NCBI GenBank assembly: GCA_938048455.1
Contig: CALIUY010000016.1
Coordinates: 78,796 to 142,795, forward strand
Direction of reading: 5' to 3'
Source of the DNA: an uncultured Desulfobacterales bacterium
Lineage (GTDB): Bacteria > Desulfobacterota > Desulfobacteria > Desulfobacterales > SpSt-501
DNA length: 64,000 nucleotides
In this document: in pieces, positions 26,484-60,163 of the stretch
Layout: each line of letters starts with the position of its first letter
How positions within the stretch are numbered: the stretch's first letter is position 1
The notes under the pieces: model-generated
Seen by the model: the letters and a program-made list of their open reading frames with translations, nothing else
The model's database searches: none
Told to the model about the DNA's origin: nothing
Position numbers and translations under genes: made by a program

Positions 26484-27335
26484 ATGAAAACCGCCGAGTC
26501 GATCACCCCGGCCATCGAGATCCACCACATCTCCAAGAGTTTCGGCAAGCGCCAGGCGCTGCAGCGCGTGAGCCTGCGGATCTCCCCCGGCGAAATGGTC
26601 GCGCTGATCGGGCCTTCGGGCTCCGGCAAGTCCACCCTGCTGCGGCACATCGCCGGCCTGGTCGGTGGCGACCGGGACTCGGGAACGATCCGCCTCTTCG
26701 GCAAGGAAGTCCAGCGCCGGGGCGCCGTCTCGCGTCGCATCCGCACGATCCGCTCCGAGGTCGGCTTCATCTTCCAGCAATTCAACCTCGTGGGCCGGCT
26801 GTCGTTGCTCACCAACGTGATGACCGGCACCCTCAGCCGCGTCGGGACCCTGCGCAGCCTGCTGGGCATCTTTCCCCGAGAAGAAAAAAGCCGCGCGATG
26901 GCGGCGCTGCAGTGTGTGGGTCTCGCCGAGTACGCCGCCCAGCGCGCCAGCACGCTCTCCGGCGGCCAGCAGCAGCGCGCCGCCATCGCGCGGGCGATGC
27001 AGCAGCGCGCCCGCATCATTCTCGCCGACGAACCGATCGCCTCGCTCGATCCGGAATCGGCGCGCATCGTGATGGAGCTGCTCCAGTGCATGAACCGGGA
27101 CGAAGGGGTCACCGTCCTGGTCAGCCTTCACCAGGTGCAGTTCGCCCTCCAGTACTGCCCGCGCTCGATCGCCATGAAGGAGGGCCGCGTGGTTTTCGAC
27201 GGGCCAAGCCGCGAGCTCAGTCCTGCGGCGCTGCGCCAGATCTACGGCTTGAAAAACGACGGCCTCGATCTCGACGGCACCCTGCCGCTGAACGTCCGGG
27301 TCTGCACCCCGCCCGCCGTGGCGGCCGGTGCTTGA
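26484..27335 (+). CDS. phnC: Phosphonate ABC transporter ATP-binding protein PhnC
   Basis: This 283-residue ATPase drives phosphonate uptake. It has Walker A GPSGSGKST near residue 52, Q-loop FIFQQFNLVGRLSLLTNVM, signature [13 protein letters not shown] and Walker B ILADEPIASLDPES, the LVGRL and ASLDPES wording being characteristic of PhnC. It is first in phnCDE, followed by a GNAT gene. AGGAGG lies about 12 bases upstream of the ATG. Confidence 0.95.
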   Translation: MKTAESITPAIEIHHISKSFGKRQALQRVSLRISPGEMVALIGPSGSGKSTLLRHIAGLVGGDRDSGTIRLFGKEVQRRGAVSRRIRTIRSEVGFIFQQFNLVGRLSLLTNVMTGTLSRVGTLRSLLGIFPREEKSRAMAALQCVGLAEYAAQRASTLSGGQQQRAAIARAMQQRARIILADEPIASLDPESARIVMELLQCMNRDEGVTVLVSLHQVQFALQYCPRSIAMKEGRVVFDGPSRELSPAALRQIYGLKNDGLDLDGTLPLNVRVCTPPAVAAGA

Positions 27336-27387: not shown

Positions 27388-28392
27388 ATGAGAAAAACCC
27401 TTTTGTCCCTGTGTCTGGCCGCCGCCTGCCTCGGCTCGGCCGCTTCCGTCTCCGCCCAGGAGTTGAAGGAGCTCACGATCGGCATCATCCCCACCGAGGC
27501 GACCGCCAGCGCCATGAAAGGCTTCGAGCCTTTCCGCGCCGACATGGAGAAGGCGCTCGGCATCCCGGTCAAACTGTTCATCGCCCCGGACTACGCCGGC
27601 GTGATCGAGGCCCAGCGTTTCAACAAGGTGCAGATCGCCTGGTACGGCAACAAGTCGGCGATCGAGGCCGTCAACCGCGCCAACGGCGAAGTCTTCTGCC
27701 AGACCGTGGATGTGAACGGCAACCCCGGCTATTGGTCGCTGATCGTGGTCCACAAGGACAGCCCCCTGCAGTCGATCGACGACATCATCCGCGAGGGCAA
27801 AAATTTGACCTTCGGCAACGGGGATCCGAACTCCACCTCGGGCTACCTCATCCCCAGCTATTACATCTGGGCGCAGCGCGGCATCGAGCCCACCAAGCAC
27901 TTCAAGCTCGTGCGCAACGCCAACCACGAGACCAATCTCATGGCCGTCGCCAACAAACAGGTCGACTTCGCCACCAACAACACCGAAAACTGGGACAAGT
28001 TCGCCAAAGCCCATCCCGATCTGATCAAGAACGTGCGCGCCGTCTGGAAAAGCCCCCTGATTCCGAGCGATCCCATGGTGTGGCGCAAGGACCTGCCGCG
28101 GGAATGGAAGAGCAAGATCAAGGGTTTCTTTCTCGCCTACGGCCGCCTGGGTCCCAACAAGGAAAAGGAGCTTGAGGTGTTGCGCGGCATGAGCTCGGGC
28201 TGGGCCCCCTTCCAGGACTCCTCCAATCACCAGCTGTTGCCGATCATGGAGATCGATCTGGCCAAGGAGAAGATGAAGCTCGAGAGCAGCACCACGATCG
28301 CCGAGGCGGAAAAGGCCCAGAAACTCGCCGAAATCGAAAAAAAGCTGGCCGATATCCGCTCTTACTCGCAGCTCGTCGCGAAATACAACTGA
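27388..28392 (+). CDS. phnD: Phosphonate-binding periplasmic protein PhnD
   Basis: This 334-residue protein has a signal peptide (about residues 1-23, ending SVSA) and the PhnD core [20 protein letters not shown], then [18 protein letters not shown], which holds the phosphonate-binding Ser/Thr loop. It delivers phosphonates to PhnE/PhnC. The C-terminal Lys/Glu-rich helix (about 295-325) resembles that of E. coli PhnD. AAAGGAG precedes the ATG. A strong hairpin follows the gene. Confidence 0.95.
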
Positions 28393-28462: not shown

Positions 28463-29260
28463 ATGACCGCCACCGCATCCGCGCTGAGGCTTCCCGCCAT
28501 TCCGCTGCGCACCAAGATCCTCCGCCTGCTGCTTGCGCTCGCCGCGGCCGGGGTACTCGCCTGGGCCTGGCAGGGCTCCGAAATGCGGCCGCTCGACCTG
28601 TTGACCTATCGCCAGAACATGGCCGCCTATCTGAAAGGGTTTCTCACGCCGGATTTCAGCGAATGGCGGGATTATTTGCACCACACGATCGTCACGATCC
28701 AGATCGCGATCTGGGGGACCCTGCTCGCGGTCCTCGGAGCCGTACCTTGCGGCCTGCTTTCCTCGGCCAATGTCGCCCCGGCGTGGATCCACCAGCCGGT
28801 GCGCCGCCTCATGGACGCCTGCCGGTCGATCAACGAGATGATCTTCGCCATGCTCTTCATCAGCGCCGTGGGTCTCGGGCCCTTCGCCGGCGTGCTCGCT
28901 CTCTTCATGCACACCCTGGGGACCCTCGCCAAGCTCTTTTCGGAGGCGGTGGAGGCCATCGACCCCCAGCCGGTCGAGGGGATCCGCGCCACCGGCGCCA
29001 GCCGCCTGCAGGAGATCGCCTACGGGATCATCCCCCAGGTGGTGCCGCTTTGGATTTCCTATTCCCTCTACCGCTTCGAATCGAACGTCCGCTCGGCCAG
29101 CGTCGTCGGCATGGTCGGCGCGGGGGGAATCGGCATGTTGCTCTGGGATGCGATCCGCAGTTTCAACTACGGGGCGACGGCGGCCATGCTGATCATCCTG
29201 ATCGTGGTCGTGAGCATTCTCGATCTCGGCTCGGCGACCATCCGCAAGCGCTATATCTGA
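28463..29260 (+). CDS. phnE: Phosphonate ABC transporter permease PhnE
   Basis: This 265-residue inner-membrane permease has about six hydrophobic helices. The ABC-coupling loop is [21 protein letters not shown], and the C-terminal [26 protein letters not shown] is the highly conserved PhnE signature. It follows phnD by 70 bp (hairpin in the gap), and its stop overlaps the next start (TGATG). Confidence 0.95.
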
Positions 29261-29868
29261 TGGCGCCGCCGCCGGAATCCCGGGGCACCTTGCGCATCCG
29301 CCGCGCACGGCCGGAGGACGCTCCTCAAGTCGCCGCCCGGATCACCGAACTGGGCTACCCCTGTTGCGAATGGGAAATGGCGGCCCGCCTGCGGGCGCTG
29401 CTGCCCCGCCGGGACATCCGTGTCGCGGTCGCCGTGGAAGGAAAGCGGATTCTCGGCGTCGTCGCCGCCGGTCTCGAGCGGGGAATCGATGCGGCACGGC
29501 CGCGGGGAAGGGTGACGGCTCTCGTCGTGGCGCCGGAAGAGCGCGGCCGGGGCCTCGGCGCCCTTCTGCTCGCCGCCGCCGAAGCGTGGTTCCGCAAACA
29601 AGGGGCCGTGGCCGCGGTCGTCAACAGCGCCACCCGTCGCCGCGCCGCGCACCGCTTCTACGAGCGCGCGGGCTACCGCGCGACCGGCCTGCGCTTCGTC
29701 AAGGAGCTCGCCGCGGAAACCCCCGGCGCCAAAAGCGCCCGCAACCCCGGCGCCCCCGCCGCCACCCGCCATTCCCCCCCCGCGGTCTGCCGACCGCAGA
29801 AAAACCCTCCGGTTTCCTCGACCAGGATTCTTCCGGCGGCGAAATCCCAAAGCCGGATCCCCTCGTAG
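29260..29868 (+). CDS. GNAT-family acetyltransferase
   Basis: This 202-residue protein has a GNAT fold in about residues 10-150: VTALVVAPEERGRGLGALLL is the acetyl-CoA-binding A motif (Arg/Gly-x-x-Gly), followed by NSATRRRAAHRFYERAGY. It is coupled to phnE by a one-base stop/start overlap, so it probably modifies a phosphonate, like E. coli PhnO, although similarity to PhnO itself is not evident. The last 50 residues are low-complexity and run antisense to the converging phosphatase gene for 196 bp. Confidence 0.8.
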   Translation: MAPPPESRGTLRIRRARPEDAPQVAARITELGYPCCEWEMAARLRALLPRRDIRVAVAVEGKRILGVVAAGLERGIDAARPRGRVTALVVAPEERGRGLGALLLAAAEAWFRKQGAVAAVVNSATRRRAAHRFYERAGYRATGLRFVKELAAETPGAKSARNPGAPAATRHSPPAVCRPQKNPPVSSTRILPAAKSQSRIPS

Positions 29869-30506
29869 ATCAGTCCCCCCAAACGTCCGGCGGCGATGTA
29901 GGCGAGTTCGGCGGCGACCGCCCCCAAACAACGCGCCTTGCGCACGCGGGGAAGCAGGCCGGCGAGCCGGCGGGTCATGCGCCGCATGGTCTTTTCCGTC
30001 TTGCCGAAGCTCACCGCGACCACCGCGGCGGAAGCCCGGCTCCGTCGCAGCGGTCCGAGCGGGGCGCCGTTGAGCGCGGCCCCCCGGCCGGAGGCCGCGG
30101 TGAACATTTCCCCCGTAAGCGGCAGGAAGACCGCCCCGGCGATCGGAGCGACGGGGGCCTCCCCGTTTCGGCGGTAACAGGCGACCGAGGCGCAGAAAAA
30201 CGGCAGACCGTGGAGAAAATTGACCGTCCCGTCGAGCGGATCGACGATCCAGACGAAGGGCTCGCCGCCCGGCGATGCGCCGGCCTCTTCGCCGATCAAG
30301 GCATGGTCCGGGAAGCGCGCGTGGATGACACGCTCCGCGGCCCGCTCGCAGAGCCGGTCGGTTTCCAGCTTGACATCGTACGGAGAACGGGACCGGATCG
30401 AGGGCCGGCGACGGAAATGGCGCATCTGGATCTCCCCCGCACGGCAGGCCGCCTCCCGCGCCGTATCCCGGACCTCCTCCAGAAACGAAACGCCTCCGCG
30501 GTCCAT
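29673..30506 (-). CDS. Inositol-monophosphatase-family phosphatase in the C-P lyase operon
   Basis: This 277-residue protein carries the metal-binding motifs GEEAG near 75, WIVDPLDGTVNFLHGLPF near 85 and WDFAAGRILVEETGG near 215 of the IMPase/FBPase/CysQ superfamily. It hydrolyses a small sugar or nucleotide phosphate with Mg2+. It is last in the operon, 9 bp after phnM, where phnN or phnP would often be. Neither of those is present, so action on a ribosyl phosphate from C-P lyase is plausible but unproven. The 3' third lies antisense to the GNAT tail. Confidence 0.85.
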   Translation of the reverse strand: MDRGGVSFLEEVRDTAREAACRAGEIQMRHFRRRPSIRSRSPYDVKLETDRLCERAAERVIHARFPDHALIGEEAGASPGGEPFVWIVDPLDGTVNFLHGLPFFCASVACYRRNGEAPVAPIAGAVFLPLTGEMFTAASGRGAALNGAPLGPLRRSRASAAVVAVSFGKTEKTMRRMTRRLAGLLPRVRKARCLGAVAAELAYIAAGRLGGLIYEGIRLWDFAAGRILVEETGGFFCGRQTAGGEWRVAAGAPGLRALLAPGVSAASSLTKRRPVAR

Positions 30507-30515
30507 CGGCCCCTC

Positions 30516-31700
30516 TCAGCTCGCCGCGCGGAAGACCTCGCGGCCGCCGACAAAGGTTGCCACCACGCCCGGAACCCGGCGCCGGTCGTCCACCAACACG
30601 AGATCGGCCGCCTTGCCCTCTTCGATCGAACCGGTTTCTTCCGCGACGCCCGCCGCCTGCGCCGCGTTCCGGCTGATCAGGCGCACGGCCGCGGGCAGAT
30701 CGAGAATGCCCTCCCGGTAGACCCGCAGCGCGGCGTGAAGCAGCGACATCGGGGCATAGTCCGAGCAGAGGATGTCCCCCAGTCCTTCGCGCAGGGCCTC
30801 GCGGCCGGAGAGGTTTCCCGTGAGCGAGGCCCCGCGCAGGACGTTGGGCGATCCGAGCGAGATCCTCATGCCCCGACGGCGCGCGGCGAGCGCGGCCTCC
30901 CGGTTGACCGGAAATTCGCAGAGAGTGACTCCCAGGCGGCTCACCGCTTCGACCTTTTCTTCGCTGTCGTCGTCATGGCTCGCCATGCGCACGCCTTCCG
31001 CGCGGCAGGCCGCGGCCAGACGCTCGAGCCCCGAGCGGTCGAGCCGTGCGCTCGCTTCGAGGCGGCTGGCGATGACGCGGTCGATGTGCTCCGGGGTCAG
31101 GTTCCGCGCCTTGGCGTAATAGTCCCGGAAGTGGGCGAGCTCCCGGAACTGGCCCTGGCCGGGCGTATGGTCCATGAAGGAAAACAGATCGATGCGCCGG
31201 CGGCGGATGAGGCCCTCGACGACTTCCAACGCCGCAGCGTTCGTCAGCTCGTAGCGGGCGTGGATGCGTGTGCGCGCCAGGAATCCGCCCCGGAGCTCGT
31301 GGATCTGGCCGATCAGAAACTGCGTCATCTCCGCCGTGCGGAAGGGCGGGTTTTCCTCGGCGGGAAGAAAACACAGGCAATGGTAGATGGTCGTCACGCC
31401 GCAGGCGACGAGCTGTTTGTCGAGCTCGTGCAGCGCGACATCGACCGGGAAGCGCCCGCCCGGGCGGGGCTGGATCGCGTTTTCGATCACGTCGCTGTGG
31501 AGGTCGATGAACCCGGGCAAGAGCAGCATGCCCCGGGCATCCACAGTCGGCAGGCGGGATGCGCCCGTCCCCGGAGTTCCGACGCGTGCGATGCGCCCCT
31601 CTTCGACTTCCACGGCGGCATCGGAGAGCAGGATCTCGGGGGTCACCACGCGGGCGTTTACGATGCGGAACGCGCGGCCGTTTGGTCTCTCGGCGTTCAT
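30516..31700 (-). CDS. phnM: Ribose 1-methylphosphonate 5-triphosphate diphosphatase PhnM
   Basis: This 394-residue amidohydrolase-superfamily enzyme removes pyrophosphate from the alpha-D-ribose 1-phosphonate 5-triphosphate made by PhnGHIL. It has GFIDLHSDVIENAIQPRPGG (HxD-type metal site), MDHTPGQGQF, ASHDDDSEEKV and LCSDYAPMSLLHAA, all typical of PhnM. AAAGGA is 9 bases upstream. The start overlaps the phnL stop in ATGA. Confidence 0.95.
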   Translation of the reverse strand: MNAERPNGRAFRIVNARVVTPEILLSDAAVEVEEGRIARVGTPGTGASRLPTVDARGMLLLPGFIDLHSDVIENAIQPRPGGRFPVDVALHELDKQLVACGVTTIYHCLCFLPAEENPPFRTAEMTQFLIGQIHELRGGFLARTRIHARYELTNAAALEVVEGLIRRRRIDLFSFMDHTPGQGQFRELAHFRDYYAKARNLTPEHIDRVIASRLEASARLDRSGLERLAAACRAEGVRMASHDDDSEEKVEAVSRLGVTLCEFPVNREAALAARRRGMRISLGSPNVLRGASLTGNLSGREALREGLGDILCSDYAPMSLLHAALRVYREGILDLPAAVRLISRNAAQAAGVAEETGSIEEGKAADLVLVDDRRRVPGVVATFVGGREVFRAAS

Positions 31701-32404
31701 GGAGGAGCTTCCTTTGACGGCAGTCGATAGCGTTCATCCATCAGGGAGTCGAGCAGCGAATCCTCGTGAAACACGGCGATCATCGTCGTGCCGCGGGCTT
31801 TCATCTCGGCGAGCACCTCGATCACGACCGCCATCGCCCGACGGTCCAGCGATGCCGTGGGCTCGTCGAGCAGCAGCAGCCGCGGCGGGCGGATCACGGC
31901 ACGCGCGAAGTTGACCCGCTGCTTTTCGCCGCCGCTGAACGTGGCCGGAAAGGCTTCCCAGAGGGTCGGCTCGATCCCGATCCGCTCGAGCATCGCCCGG
32001 GCGCGGCGACGGGCTTCCGCGGGAGGAGCCCCGGCCGTGATGAGGGGCTCGGCCACCACGTCGACGGCCGGAACCCGCGGCAGAACGCTCAAAAACTGGG
32101 TGACGTAGCCGATTTCCGCACGACGGATGCGCAGCACCTCCGTCTCCGAGGCCCGGGCGAGGTCGATTTCTCCGCCTTCGAGCGGGCGGTAGCGGATCCT
32201 CCCCTGCACGGGGAGGTAACTGCGGTAGATGCACTTGAGGACCGAGCTCTTGCCTGCGCCGCTCGGGCCGGTGAGGGCCAGCGCGGCACCTTCTCGCACC
32301 CGGAAGGAGACCCCTTCGAAGCCGAGGATCACTTTTCCGTCCTGCATGTGGCAGACGAAGCGCTTGGCCAGGTCTTCGACGTGGAGCAGCGGATCCGGAT
32401 TCAC
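31697..32404 (-). CDS. phnL: C-P lyase system protein PhnL
   Basis: This 235-residue ABC-type ATPase is essential in forming the ribosyl phosphonate with PhnG, PhnH and PhnI, rather than a transporter subunit. It has GPSGAGKSSVLKCIY (Walker A), VTQFLSVLPRVPAVDVVAEP (PhnL-type Q-loop), FSGGEKQRVNFAR and LLLDEPTASLD. The GTG start at 32404 overlaps the phnK stop in GTGA; a long upstream read-through lies inside phnK and is rejected. Confidence 0.95.
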   Translation of the reverse strand: MNPDPLLHVEDLAKRFVCHMQDGKVILGFEGVSFRVREGAALALTGPSGAGKSSVLKCIYRSYLPVQGRIRYRPLEGGEIDLARASETEVLRIRRAEIGYVTQFLSVLPRVPAVDVVAEPLITAGAPPAEARRRARAMLERIGIEPTLWEAFPATFSGGEKQRVNFARAVIRPPRLLLLDEPTASLDRRAMAVVIEVLAEMKARGTTMIAVFHEDSLLDSLMDERYRLPSKEAPP

Positions 32405-33243
32405 AGGACCGAGTTCACCAGGAGCTGGGTGTAGGGTTGCTGGGGGTCCTCGAGAATCTGGTCGGAGAGCCCCTCTTCGATGATCTCCCCGTAGCGCATG
32501 ACGATCGTGCGCGTGGTGAGCAGCCGGATCACCCCGAGATCGTGGGAGACGACCAGCATAGCGATTCCGAGCTCGCGCTGCAGGGAACGGATCAGGTCGA
32601 GCACCTTCGCCTGCACCGAGACATCCAGGCCGGTGGTCACCTCGTCGAGCAACAGCACCGCCGGCCGCGTGGAGAGCGCCTTGGCGATCTGAACGCGCTG
32701 TTGCATGCCGCCCGAAAAGTTCCGTGGCGGCTCGTCCATGCGCGAAAGCGGAACCTCCGTCTGCTGGAGCAGGGCGGAGGCCCGCTCGCGGATACGGCCG
32801 ACATGCCGCCAGCCGGCCATGAGCAGGCGCTCGGCGATGTTGCCCCCGGCGCTGACCTTCATCCGCAGGCCAAGGCGCGGATGCTGGTAGACGATGCCCA
32901 TGTGCTCGTTGCGGATCCGCCGTCGGGCAAAGGGGCTGAGCGCGAACAGGTTGCCCCCGCCGGCGTCCGCGGCGGAGGCCGCCGCGAGGCGGTACTCGCC
33001 CGCCCAGGGCTCCTCGTCGAAATGAAGCAGGCGCACGACGGTGCTCTTGCCCGAACCGCTCTCGCCCACGATGCCGAGCACCTCCCCCGGGAACAGGTCG
33101 AAGGAGACCTGCCGGCAGGCGACGATCGCGCCGCAGCGGGGGCAACGGTTGGTTTCCCGCCGCGACCCGGTCAGCTCGAGGCAGGCGCTGCAGCCCGTCC
33201 CATAGCGCTGGGTCAAGCCGCGCACCGAGAGCAACGGCGTCAT
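32401..33243 (-). CDS. phnK: C-P lyase system protein PhnK, with Cys4 insertion
   Basis: This 280-residue ABC-type ATPase binds the C-P lyase core (PhnGHIJ). It has GESGSGKSTVVRLL (Walker A), YQHPRLGLRMKVSAGGNIAER, FSGGMQQRVQIAK and LLLDEVTTGLDVS. Between the first two strands is an insertion with C-x2-C and C-x2-C (GCSACLELTG and NRCPRCGAIVAC), likely a zinc knuckle absent from E. coli PhnK. ATG at 33243 overlaps the phnJ stop by 4 bp; 20 extra upstream residues lie within phnJ and are rejected. Confidence 0.94.
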   Translation of the reverse strand: MTPLLSVRGLTQRYGTGCSACLELTGSRRETNRCPRCGAIVACRQVSFDLFPGEVLGIVGESGSGKSTVVRLLHFDEEPWAGEYRLAAASAADAGGGNLFALSPFARRRIRNEHMGIVYQHPRLGLRMKVSAGGNIAERLLMAGWRHVGRIRERASALLQQTEVPLSRMDEPPRNFSGGMQQRVQIAKALSTRPAVLLLDEVTTGLDVSVQAKVLDLIRSLQRELGIAMLVVSHDLGVIRLLTTRTIVMRYGEIIEEGLSDQILEDPQQPYTQLLVNSVL

Positions 33244-34181
33244 GCCGCGCCTCCCGGGCGTTCGCCCTCCGCCGGCCCCGCCCCGCGACGCCGTTTTTCG
33301 CAAAAGCTCGTATCCGAGCAGACCCAGCTTCGGCCGCCGGTCGCATCGTCGAGCACCTCATCGAGGTAGCTTGCGCTCGAGCCGCAGCGCCGGCAACGCC
33401 GACCGGCGAAGTCCTCCACGCGGAAGGCGAAGTCCTCAAAGGAGAGGGGCTCGACGGCGGTGTGCGGGGGGACGGCGTAAATGCGCTTTTCCCGCCCGGC
33501 GCAGAACAGAAAGAGGTTTTCCGCCCGGTCGAGCCGGGGCAGATCCCAGCGCGGAATGGGGCTTGGATCCATGAGGTAGCGACCGTTCACCATCACGGGG
33601 TAGCGCGCGCCCACGGTGATCTCGCCGTAACGTACGATGTCCTCGTAGAGATAGAGCCACATCCGGCTGTAGTCGGCCTCGGCGTGCATGCGCCGCGTTT
33701 CCCGTTCCGAGGGCTCGACGAGGCGCAGCGGCTCGGGGATCGGCACCTGGAAGATCAGCACCTGCCCGGAGTCCAGCCGCTCTTCCGGAATGCGGTGGCG
33801 GGTCTGGATGAGAGTCGCCCGCCGCGTGTCGGTCGTCACCGCCACACCCGTCACTCGTTGGACGAATTTTTTGATGTTGACCGCATTCACCGAATCGTCG
33901 CTTCCCTGGTCGATCACCTTGAGCACGTCGCCGGGGCCGATCAGCGCGAGCGTCAACTGCAAGCCCCCCGTCCCCCAGCCGCGGGCGATCGGCATTTCGC
34001 GCGAGCCGAAGGGCACCTGGCAGCCGGGGATCGCGATGGCCTTGAGCATCCGGCGCCGGATCTCGCGCTTGGCGCTCTCGTCAAGGAACGCCCAGGAGTA
34101 ACGCGCCCCCGCCCCCTCGAAGGCGGAGCCCCGGAGGCCGGGCCGGAGGGCGTCGCGGACTTGCGCTCGGAGCGCCTTCAT
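33240..34181 (-). CDS. phnJ: Alpha-D-ribose 1-methylphosphonate 5-phosphate C-P lyase PhnJ
   Basis: This 313-residue radical-SAM enzyme cleaves the carbon-phosphorus bond. Near the C-terminus C-x2-C (RRCRRCGSSASYLDEVL) and then C-x5-C (WVCSDTSFCEKR) match the four conserved cysteines of E. coli PhnJ that hold the Fe-S cluster. The N-terminal half has CQVPFGSREMPIARGWGTGG, another PhnJ signature. ATG at 34181 overlaps the phnI stop by 4 bp; the longer frame upstream is inside phnI. Confidence 0.96.
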   Translation of the reverse strand: MKALRAQVRDALRPGLRGSAFEGAGARYSWAFLDESAKREIRRRMLKAIAIPGCQVPFGSREMPIARGWGTGGLQLTLALIGPGDVLKVIDQGSDDSVNAVNIKKFVQRVTGVAVTTDTRRATLIQTRHRIPEERLDSGQVLIFQVPIPEPLRLVEPSERETRRMHAEADYSRMWLYLYEDIVRYGEITVGARYPVMVNGRYLMDPSPIPRWDLPRLDRAENLFLFCAGREKRIYAVPPHTAVEPLSFEDFAFRVEDFAGRRCRRCGSSASYLDEVLDDATGGRSWVCSDTSFCEKRRRGAGPAEGERPGGAA

Positions 34182-35275
34182 GGGAGGGGGTTCCTTTCCT
34201 TCGGGTTTCCGCCGCGGATGGCCCGCAGCCGGTCGAGGTCCGACTGGAAGGTCACGTAGTGGGGCAGCTTGTAATGGTTGCAGAACCCCATGGATTCGAT
34301 CCCGTCCACGTGGGTCAGGACGAACTCCTCGTCCTCCGAGGGGGCCGCGGGCTCGGGGCTGTCCATCGCCCGGTCCAAGACCGCCATGGCGATGGCCTTG
34401 GTCTCGTTGTGCCCGAAGCACAGCCCGTAGCCCAGACGAAACCGCGCCTCGCCGTCCTCATCGCCGATCCGGGCGATGACCTCGGCCTCGGTGATCAGGA
34501 TCTCGCCGATCGTCTCCACGGGACCGGAGGGCATCCGCCGCCGGCGTACGGGGACCGTGCCCACGCGAAGCTCGCCGATCACCGGATGCACCGAGCCGTA
34601 CCCCCGCATGTTGGAGTAAGCGAGCGCGAGCAACCCCCCCGTTTCCCCCCGGGCGAGGGTCTGAAGCCGGGCGCTTCGCGGCGCAGGAAACGAGAGCGCC
34701 TCGCGGGTGACATCGACCGGGGGCTCGGAAACCCCCTGCGGGGAGCGCGCCGGCGCAAGCAACCCTTCCCGGCGGAGCAGGTCGACCACCTTGGGGAATT
34801 CCTCCGGCAGCGGTTGCGCCGGCGCCGCGCGCAGCTCCCGCAGCAGGCGGTGGCGAACCACCTCCGGATCGCCTTCGAGATCGAAATCGAGCAGGCGCAG
34901 CGTGTAGTCCGAGGTGGGCCCGAGGATCTGTCCGCCCGGGATGTCTTTGAAGGCCGCGGAGATCCGACGCAGAACCTTCATGGCCGCGGTATCGATCGGC
35001 TCCGTGCTGCCGCGGCGGGGAAGGGTGGTGCGGTAGGCGCGCAGGAGGAAGGCCGCCTCGAAGCTGTCCCCCGCCGCCTGCTTGAGGGCCAGTGCCGCCA
35101 ATTCCGGAGCATAAAGCGAGCCTTCGCCCATCACCCGATCCACGGCGAGATGAAACACGCTGCGGATCTCTTCGATCGTGGGCGGCCGGATCCCGGCGGG
35201 AAATTGCCGCAGCTTGCGGAATCGCTCCGCGTTCTCGATGGCGGCCGCTCCGCCGCTCACGGCGACATAGCCCAT
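34178..35275 (-). CDS. phnI: C-P lyase core subunit PhnI
   Basis: This 365-residue protein is the nucleosidase subunit that, with PhnG, PhnH and PhnL, attaches the phosphonate to ribose triphosphate. It starts GYVAVSGGAAAIENAERF and contains YSNMRGYGSVHPVIGELRVG and GFCNHYKLPHYVTFQSDL, conserved throughout PhnI. It follows phnH by 1 base and overlaps phnJ by 4 bp. Confidence 0.96.
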   Translation of the reverse strand: MGYVAVSGGAAAIENAERFRKLRQFPAGIRPPTIEEIRSVFHLAVDRVMGEGSLYAPELAALALKQAAGDSFEAAFLLRAYRTTLPRRGSTEPIDTAAMKVLRRISAAFKDIPGGQILGPTSDYTLRLLDFDLEGDPEVVRHRLLRELRAAPAQPLPEEFPKVVDLLRREGLLAPARSPQGVSEPPVDVTREALSFPAPRSARLQTLARGETGGLLALAYSNMRGYGSVHPVIGELRVGTVPVRRRRMPSGPVETIGEILITEAEVIARIGDEDGEARFRLGYGLCFGHNETKAIAMAVLDRAMDSPEPAAPSEDEEFVLTHVDGIESMGFCNHYKLPHYVTFQSDLDRLRAIRGGNPKERNPLP

Positions 35276-35276
35276 C

Positions 35277-35885
35277 TCAACCTCCGATGCGGATGCGAAT
35301 CGAGCGCGGAACCGCCATGAGCCGTCCCTCGGGCTGCAGAAAGACGGCGTCCACCCCGCAAGGAAACTCGGCGTTCACCGCCTGGAGCTCCTCCCAGGCC
35401 GAAAGCGGGATCCCCTCCATTTCCGGTGCGATCCCCGAAGCGGACTCGATCCCCGGTCCCGCAAGACGGACGGGCAGCCTCTGCGCCGAGGAAGCCTCCC
35501 CCGGAGTCCCCAGGCAGCAGACGACGGTCGCCCCCTCCTGGGGGGCTTCCGCGCTGCCGCGGCACACCCGCGTTGACCAACCCGCGGCGTTCTCCACCCC
35601 GCAGATCCACAGGAAATCGGCCTTCTCGGGCTCGGCCGCGCGTGCACGGGTTTCCTGCAAAAGCAGCCCTTTCAGCCCCTCCGCCGTGCCGGCGGGCCCC
35701 ACGACAGCGCAGGAGACGGCCTCGTCGAGAAGACAGCGCCCCAGGGCGAGCGCGGCGGCAAAGGGTGCCTGCGGGTCGAGCGGTTCGATCCGCACGCACC
35801 GACCCGGACGGCTGAACGCGTGAAGGAGCCGGCGGAACACGCGCTGGCTTTCTTCTTCCCGCGCCGAGAGCACGGGCGGCGTCAT
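35277..35885 (-). CDS. phnH: C-P lyase core subunit PhnH
   Basis: This 202-residue core subunit has FRRLLHAFSRPGRCVRI at the N-terminus, LGTPGEASSAQ centrally and the C-terminal EELQAVNAEFPCGVDAVFL followed by VPRSIRIRI, all PhnH signatures. Its start overlaps the phnG stop by 4 bp, in the standard phnGHIJ order. Confidence 0.94.
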   Translation of the reverse strand: MTPPVLSAREEESQRVFRRLLHAFSRPGRCVRIEPLDPQAPFAAALALGRCLLDEAVSCAVVGPAGTAEGLKGLLLQETRARAAEPEKADFLWICGVENAAGWSTRVCRGSAEAPQEGATVVCCLGTPGEASSAQRLPVRLAGPGIESASGIAPEMEGIPLSAWEELQAVNAEFPCGVDAVFLQPEGRLMAVPRSIRIRIGG

Positions 35886-36361
35886 GACTCCCCCAGCGAA
35901 CCGAAATCGACCCGCTCCGGGCGAAGCGAAGCGAAGGCGACGCGGGTGGCGGCCGCAAAACGGGCGATCTCTTCGCGCTGTCGCCGCCAGAGAGGCTCGA
36001 GGCGTTGCCGAAAATCCTCAAGCACCCGCACCGCTTCCGGGGGGCCGGCCCGCTCCGCCGCCTCGGCAACGGCGAGCAAGAGGGCCTTTCCGGGCTCGTC
36101 GCCGCAGACGGTTGCGGCGGCGGTGCAATCGCCCAGAGCCACCTCGGCCTCGGTGACGAGCAACTCTCCCAGGTAAAACGGGGTCGCGAAGGGATCGCGT
36201 GCGGAAACGAGCAGAAGCGCCGCCTGGGGCGGCCGCAGCACCGCCAAAGGAACCGTCTGCCGGAGACGCTCGAGTACGGCCTCGATCTCCGGGCGGGAAG
36301 CGGCATCCAGGACCGCAAGGAGCCTCTCTTTCAGGCTCGCGCTCGTCGTGTCGTCAGCCAT
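35882..36361 (-). CDS. phnG: C-P lyase core subunit PhnG
   Basis: This 159-residue small core subunit partners PhnI. FYLGELLVTEAEVALGD is the family hallmark, and the C-terminal helix includes ATRVAFASLRPERVDFGSL. The start at 36361 overlaps the acetyltransferase stop by 8 bp. Confidence 0.92.
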   Translation of the reverse strand: MADDTTSASLKERLLAVLDAASRPEIEAVLERLRQTVPLAVLRPPQAALLLVSARDPFATPFYLGELLVTEAEVALGDCTAAATVCGDEPGKALLLAVAEAAERAGPPEAVRVLEDFRQRLEPLWRRQREEIARFAAATRVAFASLRPERVDFGSLGES

Positions 36362-36989
36362 AAAGCTCCAGAAAGCGATTCAGGTCGTACAAATCGGAAA
36401 AGCGCCGCTCCAGGGTTTCCCGGTCCCAGTCCCACCAGGCGATGGCGAGCAGCTTTTCGATCACCGGCGCAGGAAAGCGAAAGCGCACCGGCCGGGCCGG
36501 GACCCCGGCGACCAGCTGGTAGGGCGCCACCTCGCGGGTCACCACCGCCCCGGCCGCCACCACGGCTCCGGTACCGATGGTCACGCCGCCCATGATTTTG
36601 GCCCCGTGTCCGATCCAGACGTCGTGCCCGATCCGGCAGCCGCGGCTTTTGCGCCAGGCGAAGACCTCGTCGTCGTCGCGCTCGCCGAAGCCGTAACGCA
36701 CCCGGCGGTAGGTGCAATGGTGCTGAGTCACGCGCTGCATCGGGTGATCGCCGGGGTGAATCACGACGTGCGAGGCGATGGAACAGAAACGGCCGATCTG
36801 CGAATAGTTCACGACGCCGTCCGCGCCGGCGAGGTAGCTGTAATCTCCCAGGCGCGATTCGATCACCGTCCAGCGCGGGCCGACATCGGTGTATTCGCCG
36901 AGACGGGAGGCGACGACGCAGGCTGAAGGATCGATCCGCGGCCGGGCGCTTTCCCGGTCGCCCGGCGTGAACGGGTGGGGCTGCCGCAT
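36354..36989 (-). CDS. Left-handed beta-helix acetyltransferase of phosphonate operons
   Basis: This 211-residue protein has hexapeptide-repeat structure: SRLGEYTDVGPRWTV, then IGRFCSIASHVVIHPGDHP, and CRIGHDVWIGHGAKIMGG with the catalytic-type His of xenobiotic acetyltransferases. The WWDWD segment near the C-terminus is shared with chloramphenicol/DapH-like members found in phn operons. The exact acceptor is unknown. ATG at 36989 is preferred to an upstream TTG at 37025, because the TTG would lie inside the Pho box. It is the first gene of the C-P lyase operon. Confidence 0.88.
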   Translation of the reverse strand: MRQPHPFTPGDRESARPRIDPSACVVASRLGEYTDVGPRWTVIESRLGDYSYLAGADGVVNYSQIGRFCSIASHVVIHPGDHPMQRVTQHHCTYRRVRYGFGERDDDEVFAWRKSRGCRIGHDVWIGHGAKIMGGVTIGTGAVVAAGAVVTREVAPYQLVAGVPARPVRFRFPAPVIEKLLAIAWWDWDRETLERRFSDLYDLNRFLELYG

Positions 36990-54261: not shown

Positions 54262-55042
54262 AGCAGCGGCCGATCTCCTCGTGACCGTCCTCGGCTCGGG
54301 CACCTGCGTCCCCAGCCGCGAACGAAGCTCCTGCGCCCTGCTGGCCGAGACCGCAGGCCGTCGGTTCCTGCTCGATGCAGGCCCGGGTACGCTGCGCCGG
54401 CTCGCCGAGGCGGGCTTCGCGCTCGACGATCTCACGGCGGTTCTCTTCAGCCACCTCCACCCGGACCACACGGGGGATCTCGCAGCGCTTCTTTTCGCGA
54501 TGAAATACGATCCCGGGACGCGGCGGGCCACACCGCTCACGCTGGTCGGGGGACAGGGCTTCGCCGATTTCTACGCCCGGTTGAAGGGAGCTTACGGGGA
54601 CTGGATCGACCCCGGAGCGGGACGTCTGCGGATCCGCGAAGTCGCCGTCGACGGACCGGATGTTCTCGATTCGGCGGGCATCGAAATCCGCACCGCCCCG
54701 ACGGCGCATACGCCGCAGAGCGTGGCTTACCGCTTGCAGAGCCCCTCGGGACGCTCGTGCGTCTACTCGGGAGACACGGACTGGGCCGCATCGCTGGTCC
54801 AGCTTGCCGAACGGGCCGATCTTCTGGTATGTGAAGCGGCTTTCCCGGAGGGTCAGAAGGTCGCCGGGCATTTGACCCCGGCCCTGGCGGGGCAAATCGC
54901 CGCCCGGGCGCAGGTGCGGCGCCTGATGCTGACCCATTTCTACCCCGCCTGCGAGGCGGCCGACATCGCCGCGCAGTGCCGGCAGACCTGGTCGGGCCCG
55001 CTCCTTCTGGCCCGCGACCTGATGCGGATTCCCGTGGAATGA
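54254..55042 (+). CDS. MBL-fold hydrolase, ribonuclease Z-like
   Basis: In this 262-residue metallo-beta-lactamase fold, VLGSGTCVPSRERSS at the start, SHLHPDHTGDLAALL near 65 (HxHxDH), YSGDTDWAASL near 175 and LTHFYP near 225 provide the metal ligands, as in RNase Z and phosphodiesterase relatives. The tRNase Z flexible arm is not evident, so a general nuclease or phosphodiesterase is likely. Confidence 0.86.
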   Translation: MPEAAADLLVTVLGSGTCVPSRERSSCALLAETAGRRFLLDAGPGTLRRLAEAGFALDDLTAVLFSHLHPDHTGDLAALLFAMKYDPGTRRATPLTLVGGQGFADFYARLKGAYGDWIDPGAGRLRIREVAVDGPDVLDSAGIEIRTAPTAHTPQSVAYRLQSPSGRSCVYSGDTDWAASLVQLAERADLLVCEAAFPEGQKVAGHLTPALAGQIAARAQVRRLMLTHFYPACEAADIAAQCRQTWSGPLLLARDLMRIPVE

Positions 55043-58941: not shown

Positions 58942-59304
58942 ATGAAAAAAAAAGATTTGGATTTTTTCAAAAAGCTTCTGGAGAGCCGTCTGCAGGAGCT
59001 GCTCGCCCAGGCGGACGACACCGTATCGGGGATGACGATCAGCCACGAGAACTTTCCCGATCCCACCGACCGCGCGTCGCTCGAGGCCGACCGCAATTTT
59101 CTGCTCCGCATCCGTGACCGGGAACACAAGCTGATCAAGAAAATCAAACAAGCCCTCGAGCGGATCGACAACGGCACCTACGGCATCTGCGAGGCCTGCG
59201 GCGAGGAAATCTCCATCAAGCGGCTCAAAGCCCGTCCGGTGACGACCCTGTGCATCGAGTGCAAGGCCAAGGAAGAAGCTCTGGAGAAAGCCCTTGGGAT
59301 CTAA
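58942..59304 (+). CDS. dksA: DksA/TraR-family transcription factor
   Basis: In this 120-residue protein a coiled-coil N-terminus ([20 protein letters not shown]) is followed by [19 protein letters not shown] and a C-x2-C-x17-C-x2-C zinc finger (CEACGEE, LCIECK). It binds RNA polymerase and works with ppGpp. The next gene starts inside it. Confidence 0.94.
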
Positions 59305-60163
59305 TCCCGCGCCGGCCATCGATCTGCACATCCATTCCACGGCCTCCGACGGCACCCTCACCCCCGGGGAAATCGTAGAGCGCGCGGCGGCGCTCGGCCT
59401 GGGGGCGATCGCCCTCACCGACCACGACTGCCTGGACGGCTGCCGCGAAGCCATCGCCCGGGGCATCCCGGAGGGACTGGGTTTTCTAACGGGGGTCGAG
59501 ATCAGCGCCGACCGGCCGGCCGGACTGCCCGGCGAGGGCAGCCTGCACATCCTCGGCTACCGCATCCGGATCGACGACCCGACGTTGAACGAGGCCCTCC
59601 TCGCCCTGCAGGCCGCGCGCGGAGACCGCAACCCGCGCATCCTCGAGCGGCTGGAGGCGCTCGGAATTCCCATCACGCTCGCCGAAGTCGAAGCCGAGGC
59701 CGACGGCGGCCACCCGGGCCGCCCGCACATCGCCCGCATCCTCGTGCGCAAGGGCATCGTGGCCACGATCGACGAGGCCTTTGATCGCTATCTGGGAAAC
59801 GGCCGAGCGGCCTACGTGGGCAAGGAGCGCATGGCCACGGCCCGCGCCATCGATCTCATCCGGGCGGCGGGGGGTGTTCCGGTCCTCGCCCATCCCGGGC
59901 TGCTTGAACTCGAAGAGGATCAGCGGCTCGAGGCGCTGCTCGGGGAATTGAAATCCCTGGGGCTGGCGGGACTCGAGGTCTTCTTTCCGGACCACGACCC
60001 GGAGCAGACCGCACGCTTCGCCCGGCTCGCCGCCCGGCTGGATCTTCTCCTGACGGGGGGCACCGATTTCCACGGCGAGATCCGGCCGGAGATCGAAATG
60101 GGCTCCGGCCGGGGCGACCTCTTCGTCCCCTACGAGCTCTACGAGCGGATCCTCACCCTCTGA
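59294..60163 (+). CDS. PHP-domain phosphoesterase (RNase AM/YciV-like)
   Basis: This 289-residue protein has [49 protein letters not shown] and GGTDFHGE, matching YciV-type PHP enzymes that remove 5' nucleotides or act on 3',5'-bisphosphate nucleotides. The TTG start at 59294 has GGAGAAAG upstream and overlaps dksA by 11 bp; no ATG lies closer to the conserved N-terminus. Confidence 0.88.

Follow-up and report, generated by a model that had tools for sequence, protein, structure and literature searches.

The window, by which is meant the whole 64,000-nucleotide stretch of DNA that was analyzed (GC content 67%), comes from the genome of an uncultured Desulfobacterales bacterium (G000; 3.38 Mb in 64 contigs, 96.5% complete). 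Nine close-packed genes on its reverse strand form a C-P lyase operon, in the order TIGR03308 acyltransferase, phnG, phnH, phnI, phnJ, phnK, phnL, phnM and a gene of the inositol monophosphatase (IMPase) family. The last of these starts with ATG and encodes 277 amino acids, which match Pfam family PF00459 at 162.8 bits against a cut-off of 27. Genes up to phnM are spaced by -8 to +1 bp, and 9 bp (GAGGGGCCG) lie between phnM and the ATG of the IMPase gene. The first-pass annotation had described an IMPase-family gene at the end of a phnGHIJKLM operon, and the Pfam and NCBIfam assignments bear this out, with PhnK assigned as best family below its equivalog cut-off. Convergent to the operon, on the other strand, are phnC, phnD, phnE and a PhnO-like GNAT gene, which were absent from that annotation; the phnC label was based on E. 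coli PhnC as the reference. The features are as follows.

29673–30506, reverse strand: IMPase-family phosphatase of the phn-linked clade, last operon gene (PF00459, 162.8 bits)
30516–31700, reverse strand: phnM, RPnTP diphosphatase (TIGR02318, 400.7 bits, above cut-off)
31697–32404, reverse strand: phnL, GTG start likely (TIGR02324, 265.7 bits, above cut-off)
32401–33243, reverse strand: phnK (TIGR02323, 253.1 bits, best family, below the equivalog cut-off of 302.85)
33240–34181, reverse strand: phnJ, C-P lyase (PF06007, 470.3 bits, above cut-off)
34178–35275, reverse strand: phnI (PF05861, 457.8 bits, above cut-off)
35277–35885, reverse strand: phnH (PF05845, 114.9 bits, above cut-off)
35882–36361, reverse strand: phnG (PF06754, 65.7 bits against a cut-off of 32.4; NCBIfam 72.2 bits, below 89)
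36354–36989, reverse strand: hexapeptide-repeat acyltransferase of phosphonate clusters, first operon gene (TIGR03308, 252.2 bits, above cut-off)
29260–29868, forward strand: PhnO-like GNAT acetyltransferase, convergent (NF007530, 58.8 bits, below the cut-off of 142; Pfam GNAT)
28463–29260, forward strand: phnE, permease (PF00528, 79.9 bits)
27388–28392, forward strand: phnD, phosphonate-binding protein (PF12974, 236.3 bits)
26484–27335, forward strand: phnC, ATPase (L085, which is this same stretch of the genome, matches E. coli PhnC at 273 bits; PF00005)

The PhnO-like frame overlaps the 3′ end of the IMPase gene by 196 bp, and the IMPase has an extended C-terminal tail in common with the IMPase of genome G003. 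Directly upstream of the operon, and divergent from it, is a PhoU-domain gene (PF01895; 37202–37858, forward strand), also present in G003, which suggests phosphate control of the cluster.

The C-P lyase pathway degrades phosphonates and yields methane from methylphosphonate; in E. coli, PhnI, PhnM and PhnJ convert the phosphonate to 5-phospho-α-D-ribosyl 1,2-cyclic phosphate. As outlined in the sections of PMC10574752 and PMC3840354 that deal with E. coli, this PhnJ product is opened by PhnP, and PhnN leads on to PRPP. The first-pass annotation had reported phnN and phnP as missing from the operon, and the same was found for the rest of the G000 genome at the family cut-offs, the best matches genome-wide being 59.7 bits for PhnN (cut-off 156) and 20.7 bits for PhnP (cut-off 272.25). 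These searches covered G000 genome-wide and, in each, placed one of 14 control genomes above cut-off. Three proteins were considered and rejected: the 59.7-bit match as PhnN, the open reading frame being a guanylate kinase by eye; the MBL protein near window position 54311 as PhnP, which is RNase-Z-like by eye; and a PHP protein (59294–60163, forward strand) as PhnPP, with 94.5 bits against a cut-off of 500. The PHP protein scored best as a 3′,5′-nucleoside bisphosphate phosphatase (200 bits, cut-off 400) and adjoins a gene that resembles RNase III by eye.

To describe the distribution of the IMPase, a profile built from an alignment of five phn-linked IMPases (G000, G003, G004, G006 and G038) was used to search 389 genomes of the order, with up to six first-look candidates scored per genome. 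Best scores per genome were two-peaked: 11 of the 389 genomes scored 283–496 bits and the next scored 187. Six high scorers were outside the profile (G001, G448, G509, G612, G689 and G544), and in all six the gene lies among C-P lyase genes, as part of such a cluster. The neighborhood survey of homologs proposed in the first-pass annotation thus placed the clade IMPase within a C-P lyase cluster in all 11 genomes of the order sample; it directly follows phnM, in the same orientation, in ten, and is convergent beside phnM in G544. At the 19 next-best loci examined (flanks of up to 1.5 kb), no phn genes were found near the lower scorers. PhnJ is present in 52 of the 389 genomes, all 11 IMPase genomes among them. 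With the PhnJ and IMPase searches, each run on 389 order genomes, taken as covering the same set, the clade IMPase occurs in 11/52 PhnJ-positive and 0/337 PhnJ-negative genomes (Fisher p = 9 × 10−11), or 6/47 and 0/337 when the five profile genomes are left out (p = 2.5 × 10−6); these p values overstate independence because close relatedness is common among the 11 (as between G612 and G689), and the clade IMPases represent fewer than 11 independent events. Four of the 11 IMPase genomes are 73%–87% complete. Genomes G002 and G005, which belong to the window's own genus, contain neither PhnJ nor the clade IMPase.

In a 40-row tree, the 11 phn-linked IMPases form one clade apart from SuhB (support 97/89). 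Since close relatives adjoin phn genes in ten other genomes, the association of the IMPase with phn genes is not due to chance. An exact 8-residue peptide scan from one protein returned one close relative, L087 (a G003 contig). Among the matches listed, phage records (5 of 9 records, ∼30% identity) and plasmid records (8 of 567, ≤36% identity) contained general IMPases only.

The exit genes were compared across 73 C-P lyase clusters, read as 75 stretches with fragments included. The 72 source genomes, all from the phylum, were 47 of the order's 52 PhnJ-positive genomes plus every one of the 25 other PhnJ-positive genomes in the phylum sample. Five PhnJ-positive order genomes with fragmentary or weak matches (G578, G592, G616, G729 and G761) were left out. 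Exit-slot genes were scored as IMPase, PhnN, PhnP, AP_endonuc_2 TIM barrel or 2H, the last through DUF1045, which we take to be the 2H family of the RcsF replacement. The slot held the IMPase in 11/73 clusters, the TIM barrel alone in 28/73 and together with 2H in one more, PhnN and PhnP in 3/73, PhnN and 2H in 4/73, PhnN alone in 4/73 and 2H alone in 4/73. In the remaining 18/73, the stretch read contained none of the five. Seven of these 18 have fewer than six core genes, in at least four cases because a contig ends there; 11 have six or more, and at least three of the 11 (L021, L069 and L167) reach a contig end just after phnL. Given these 18 clusters, the pathway may not strictly require a linked exit enzyme.

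None of the 11 IMPase clusters, among the 73 examined, contained PhnN, PhnP, 2H or the TIM barrel alongside the IMPase. Genome-wide searches of the 11 IMPase genomes gave no match to DUF1045 (three positive controls, 165–183 bits) and no match above 22 bits to the TIM family (three positive controls, 532–571 bits); weak TIM matches in G509 (21.2 bits) and G038 (19.2 bits) were treated as noise. In an all-against-all comparison of unclassified open reading frames from the IMPase clusters, the matches listed were mostly antisense frames of known genes, and a further hydrolase common to these clusters was rejected on that basis. Co-occurrence, synteny and exclusivity in the slot support the IMPase as a dedicated C-P lyase partner in the order sample, where it is restricted to, and clustered with, phnGHIJKLM.

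Most frequent in the exit slot is the TIM-barrel family (PF01261), which is present in 29/73 clusters (for example L024:13525–14448, forward strand, and in L026, L059, L074, L165 and L184), and contains many invariant His, Asp and Glu residues. One of two proteins scanned gave a weak match to CbiR phosphodiesterase (31 bits against 105), and the predicted structure is ketose-epimerase-like (Z ∼21.8; model pLDDT 73.8). This family may be a PhnP substitute or a ribose-phosphate isomerase. Together the clusters suggest that the exit is the exchangeable part of the C-P lyase pathway, with the IMPase, the TIM barrel and 2H (and PHP in the literature) as candidate alternatives to PhnP and PhnN of unrelated folds.

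The IMPase is rather likely to be a phosphatase dedicated to the exit of the C-P lyase pathway, a role in which it would free the C1 phosphate and leave ribose 5-phosphate and Pi. A Mg-dependent enzyme of the IMPase fold would stand in place of PhnP and PhnN and cleave the phosphate at C1, without using ATP and without passing through PRPP. The C1 phosphate, with its cis C2 hydroxyl, resembles the ester normally cleaved by IMPases, and lysines specific to the clade would grip the 5-phosphate. For the phosphorus exit in the many clusters that lack PhnN and PhnP, this provides a specific candidate enzyme for one such group; the reading predicts that free phosphate and ribose 5-phosphate are formed instead of PRPP, and is a warning that a gene annotated as IMPase within a phn operon may not encode an inositol enzyme.

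Action on another ester in service of the pathway is unlikely. The IMPase could act on intermediates that are stalled or toxic (ribosyl phosphonates or ribosyl cyclic phosphate) by taking off their 5-phosphate, or it could have a broad range and release Pi from nucleotides or sugar phosphates under starvation. Promiscuity is possible in the family, as SuhB takes several polyol phosphates and 2′-AMP at reduced efficiency according to the substrate data quoted from PMC2080633, and, in the results excerpted from PMC3463581, the medium of E. coli phnP strains contains dephosphorylated intermediates of the pathway. However, restriction of the clade to C-P lyase genomes (11/11 in the order sample) and its exclusivity within clusters with respect to PhnN/PhnP, 2H and TIM proteins favor the exit step over general scavenging.

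An AlphaFold2 model of the window IMPase (pLDDT 85.9, pTM 0.86) has the IMPase fold, with top structural matches to 9mmi (Z 33.6, rmsd 2.2, 252 residues aligned) and SuhB (8wip, Z 33.4). Residues E73, D89, L91, D92, T94 and D221 are kept in 11/11 clade members, so that both the profile match and the metal-binding and catalytic set of the superfamily, E-D-(L/I)-D-T-D, are present. The 11 members were compared with 24 SuhB-like IMPases, from which own_C1, own_C3, own_C4, E. coli CysQ and L091 had been left out beforehand; identity of the phn IMPase to these 24 is 29%–34%. Four residues, K46, S166, G168 and K190, occur in 11/11 phn members and 0/24 others. The position of K46 is V, I or L in the other IMPases, the GFP of which is replaced by SFG in the phn clade (S166 and G168), and the loop after SFG has one residue fewer than that of E. 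coli SuhB. The glutamate that contacts inositol, residue 213 in human IMPA1 numbering and equated with SuhB Glu205 since both lie seven positions from the metal Asp, is present in 24/24 other IMPases; in the phn clade it is replaced, by Y214 in 10/11 members including that of the window and by Gln in G544.

Glu213 of human IMPase contacts the C3 and C4 hydroxyls of inositol, and members active on bisphosphates combine replacement of this Glu with a shorter β9–α6 loop, as set out in the structural comparison in PMC2080633. The replacements listed in that part of the paper are Asp, His, Ser and Thr, and Gln is placed there with the inositol-specific enzymes; because Tyr falls outside the list and Gln is on the inositol-specific side, the pocket change is suggestive only. 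K46 occupies the position of HisN motif-1 Val42, an equivalence drawn from spacing, and the Val42 side chain faces the active-site side in the HisN motif description of PMC5516325. Judged from sequence, the clade-specific lysines probably hold the 5-phosphate. A role on inositol phosphate alone is unlikely because the active site is without the inositol-recognition glutamate.

It is quite improbable that the protein is an ordinary phosphatase of the SuhB/inositol, histidinol or CysQ (PAP) type that ended up in the operon by chance, or a SuhB-like RNA-processing factor. SuhB and its relatives are the nearest solved structures (Z about 33) and HisN is the best NCBIfam match, but the scores are far from the equivalog cut-offs for HisN (TIGR02067, 125.7 bits against 275.15), SuhB (NF008027, 115.2 against 332) and CysQ (TIGR01331, 53.6 against 228.8). 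The genome also contains four other PF00459 genes (five in total), one of which is among the SuhB-like rows of the tree, where the phn clade, without the inositol glutamate, is separate. Motif 5 of HisN contains the defining Asp191, as given in the motif section of PMC5516325; the position equated with it from the R..GD pattern is Ala in 9/11, Cys in one and Ser in one of the phn clade.

In a PhnM tree, 10/11 IMPase clusters form one clade (support 100/99). The PhnM that adjoins the IMPase in G544 is on a distant branch, and PhnK places G544 likewise; a second, window-like phnM is on another contig of this genome. The G544 cluster (L193 and L133) seems hybrid in makeup: its two phnM genes differ, and its phnCDE set is like that of the window and adjoins a C-P lyase core from another lineage. 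Since the IMPase has joined two or more C-P lyase backbones, passive linkage is a harder explanation, a point to be read with caution as G544 is 81% complete and its cluster hybrid-looking. In both G001 and G544 the cluster is spread over two contigs, for which the labels were merged; these genomes are 87% and 81% complete, respectively. G560, which like G544 belongs to genus g304, lacks the clade IMPase and contains a PhnN-like protein (138.3 bits, below the cut-off of 156) in a cluster related to that of G544. Genome G689 contains an IMPase operon (L194, C42) and a second operon with PhnN (238 bits) and PhnP (351 bits; L132, C2), so replacement of PhnN and PhnP is not absolute at the genome level; G689 is 73% complete, and contamination is possible.

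That the IMPase is equivalent to PhnP only, converting the cyclic phosphate to ribose 1,5-bisphosphate for use by an unlinked enzyme, is hardly to be expected, even though PhnN-less clusters with a single putative exit protein exist (2H only in 4/73, TIM barrel in 29/73, one of them with 2H too) and loss of the PhnP step makes intermediates accumulate in E. coli (PMC3463581, in the excerpted results), since the fold and metal-site residues are those of a phosphomonoesterase, for which halting at the monoester would be unusual, and since the PhnN-like protein of G560, in a cluster related to the IMPase cluster of its congener G544, fits replacement of the PhnN step.

What the exit phosphatase reading leaves to be explained is the step performed by PhnP in E. 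coli. Opening of the 1,2-cyclic phosphate ring is outside ordinary phosphomonoesterase action, and to our knowledge no member of the IMPase family opens a cyclic diester. Since the 1,2-cyclic phosphate builds up in E. coli phnP strains (excerpted results of PMC3463581), a dedicated opener is expected. Among the matches listed, no other ring-opening enzyme was recognized in the IMPase clusters, which makes a double activity of the IMPase a live option. The opener may with about equal likelihood be the IMPase itself, as in PhnPP with another fold, or an unlinked phosphodiesterase, for which the PHP protein at 59294–60163 is a possible candidate. The proposal of the first-pass annotation, that the IMPase acts instead of PhnN and PhnP, was therefore kept in part: the IMPase is a dedicated phn partner in a genome with neither protein at cut-off, but the ring-opening step of PhnP is unexplained by it and G689 carries both exits.

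A tentative extension is that the phn IMPase is a putative bifunctional cyclic-phosphate dihydrolase, which would open the 1,2-cyclic phosphate and then remove the phosphate in one active site, giving ribose 5-phosphate and Pi. If so, the PhnPP reaction would have arisen a second time, in an unrelated fold, the cyclic-diester activity would be new to the IMPase superfamily, and the C-P lyase exit would be free of ATP.

Replacement of PhnP or PhnN by an unrelated enzyme is an event of an already known kind; the open-licence papers listed in literature searches described neither an IMPase nor a TIM barrel as the exit of the C-P lyase pathway. Compared with the PhnP and PhnN exit of E. coli, the window operon has the same phnGHIJKLM core, phnCDE and a PhnO-like gene, with the IMPase in the place after phnM; it differs in that the genome contains no PhnP-family MBL protein or ribose-bisphosphate kinase at cut-off, the IMPase being there instead, and in that use of ATP is not expected at the IMPase exit. 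PhnPP (PHP family, NF041661) was reportedly characterized as a cyclic phosphate dihydrolase that forms Pi and ribose 5-phosphate. The same net outcome from the PhnJ product is proposed for the IMPase, and the phnPP branch yields ribose 5-phosphate in the pathway description of PMC8774927; in contrast, the PHP fold is unrelated to that of the IMPase, and the nearest PHP protein in the window genome is at 94.5 bits against 500. The RcsF/2H proteins (DUF1045) are a further case of an unrelated phosphoesterase thought to replace PhnP in phn operons (PMC10574752 and PMC3840354, in the sections cited above), but 2H proteins are cyclic phosphodiesterases, and DUF1045 was without a match in all 11 IMPase genomes. 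SuhB and IMPA1 share with the phn IMPase the fold (9mmi, Z 33.6; 8wip, Z 33.4) and the catalytic metal-site residues, whereas the phn IMPase has 29%–34% identity, a replaced Glu, SFG for GFP, a loop shorter by one residue and extra invariant lysines. The dual IMPase/fructose-1,6-bisphosphatases MJ0109 and AF2372 also use the IMPase fold for a sugar bisphosphate and also have the inositol Glu replaced, as listed in the comparison in PMC2080633; their Z to the phn IMPase is about 25, the phn enzyme has Tyr rather than Asp, His, Ser or Thr at this position, and it is the phn enzyme that is linked to C-P lyase.
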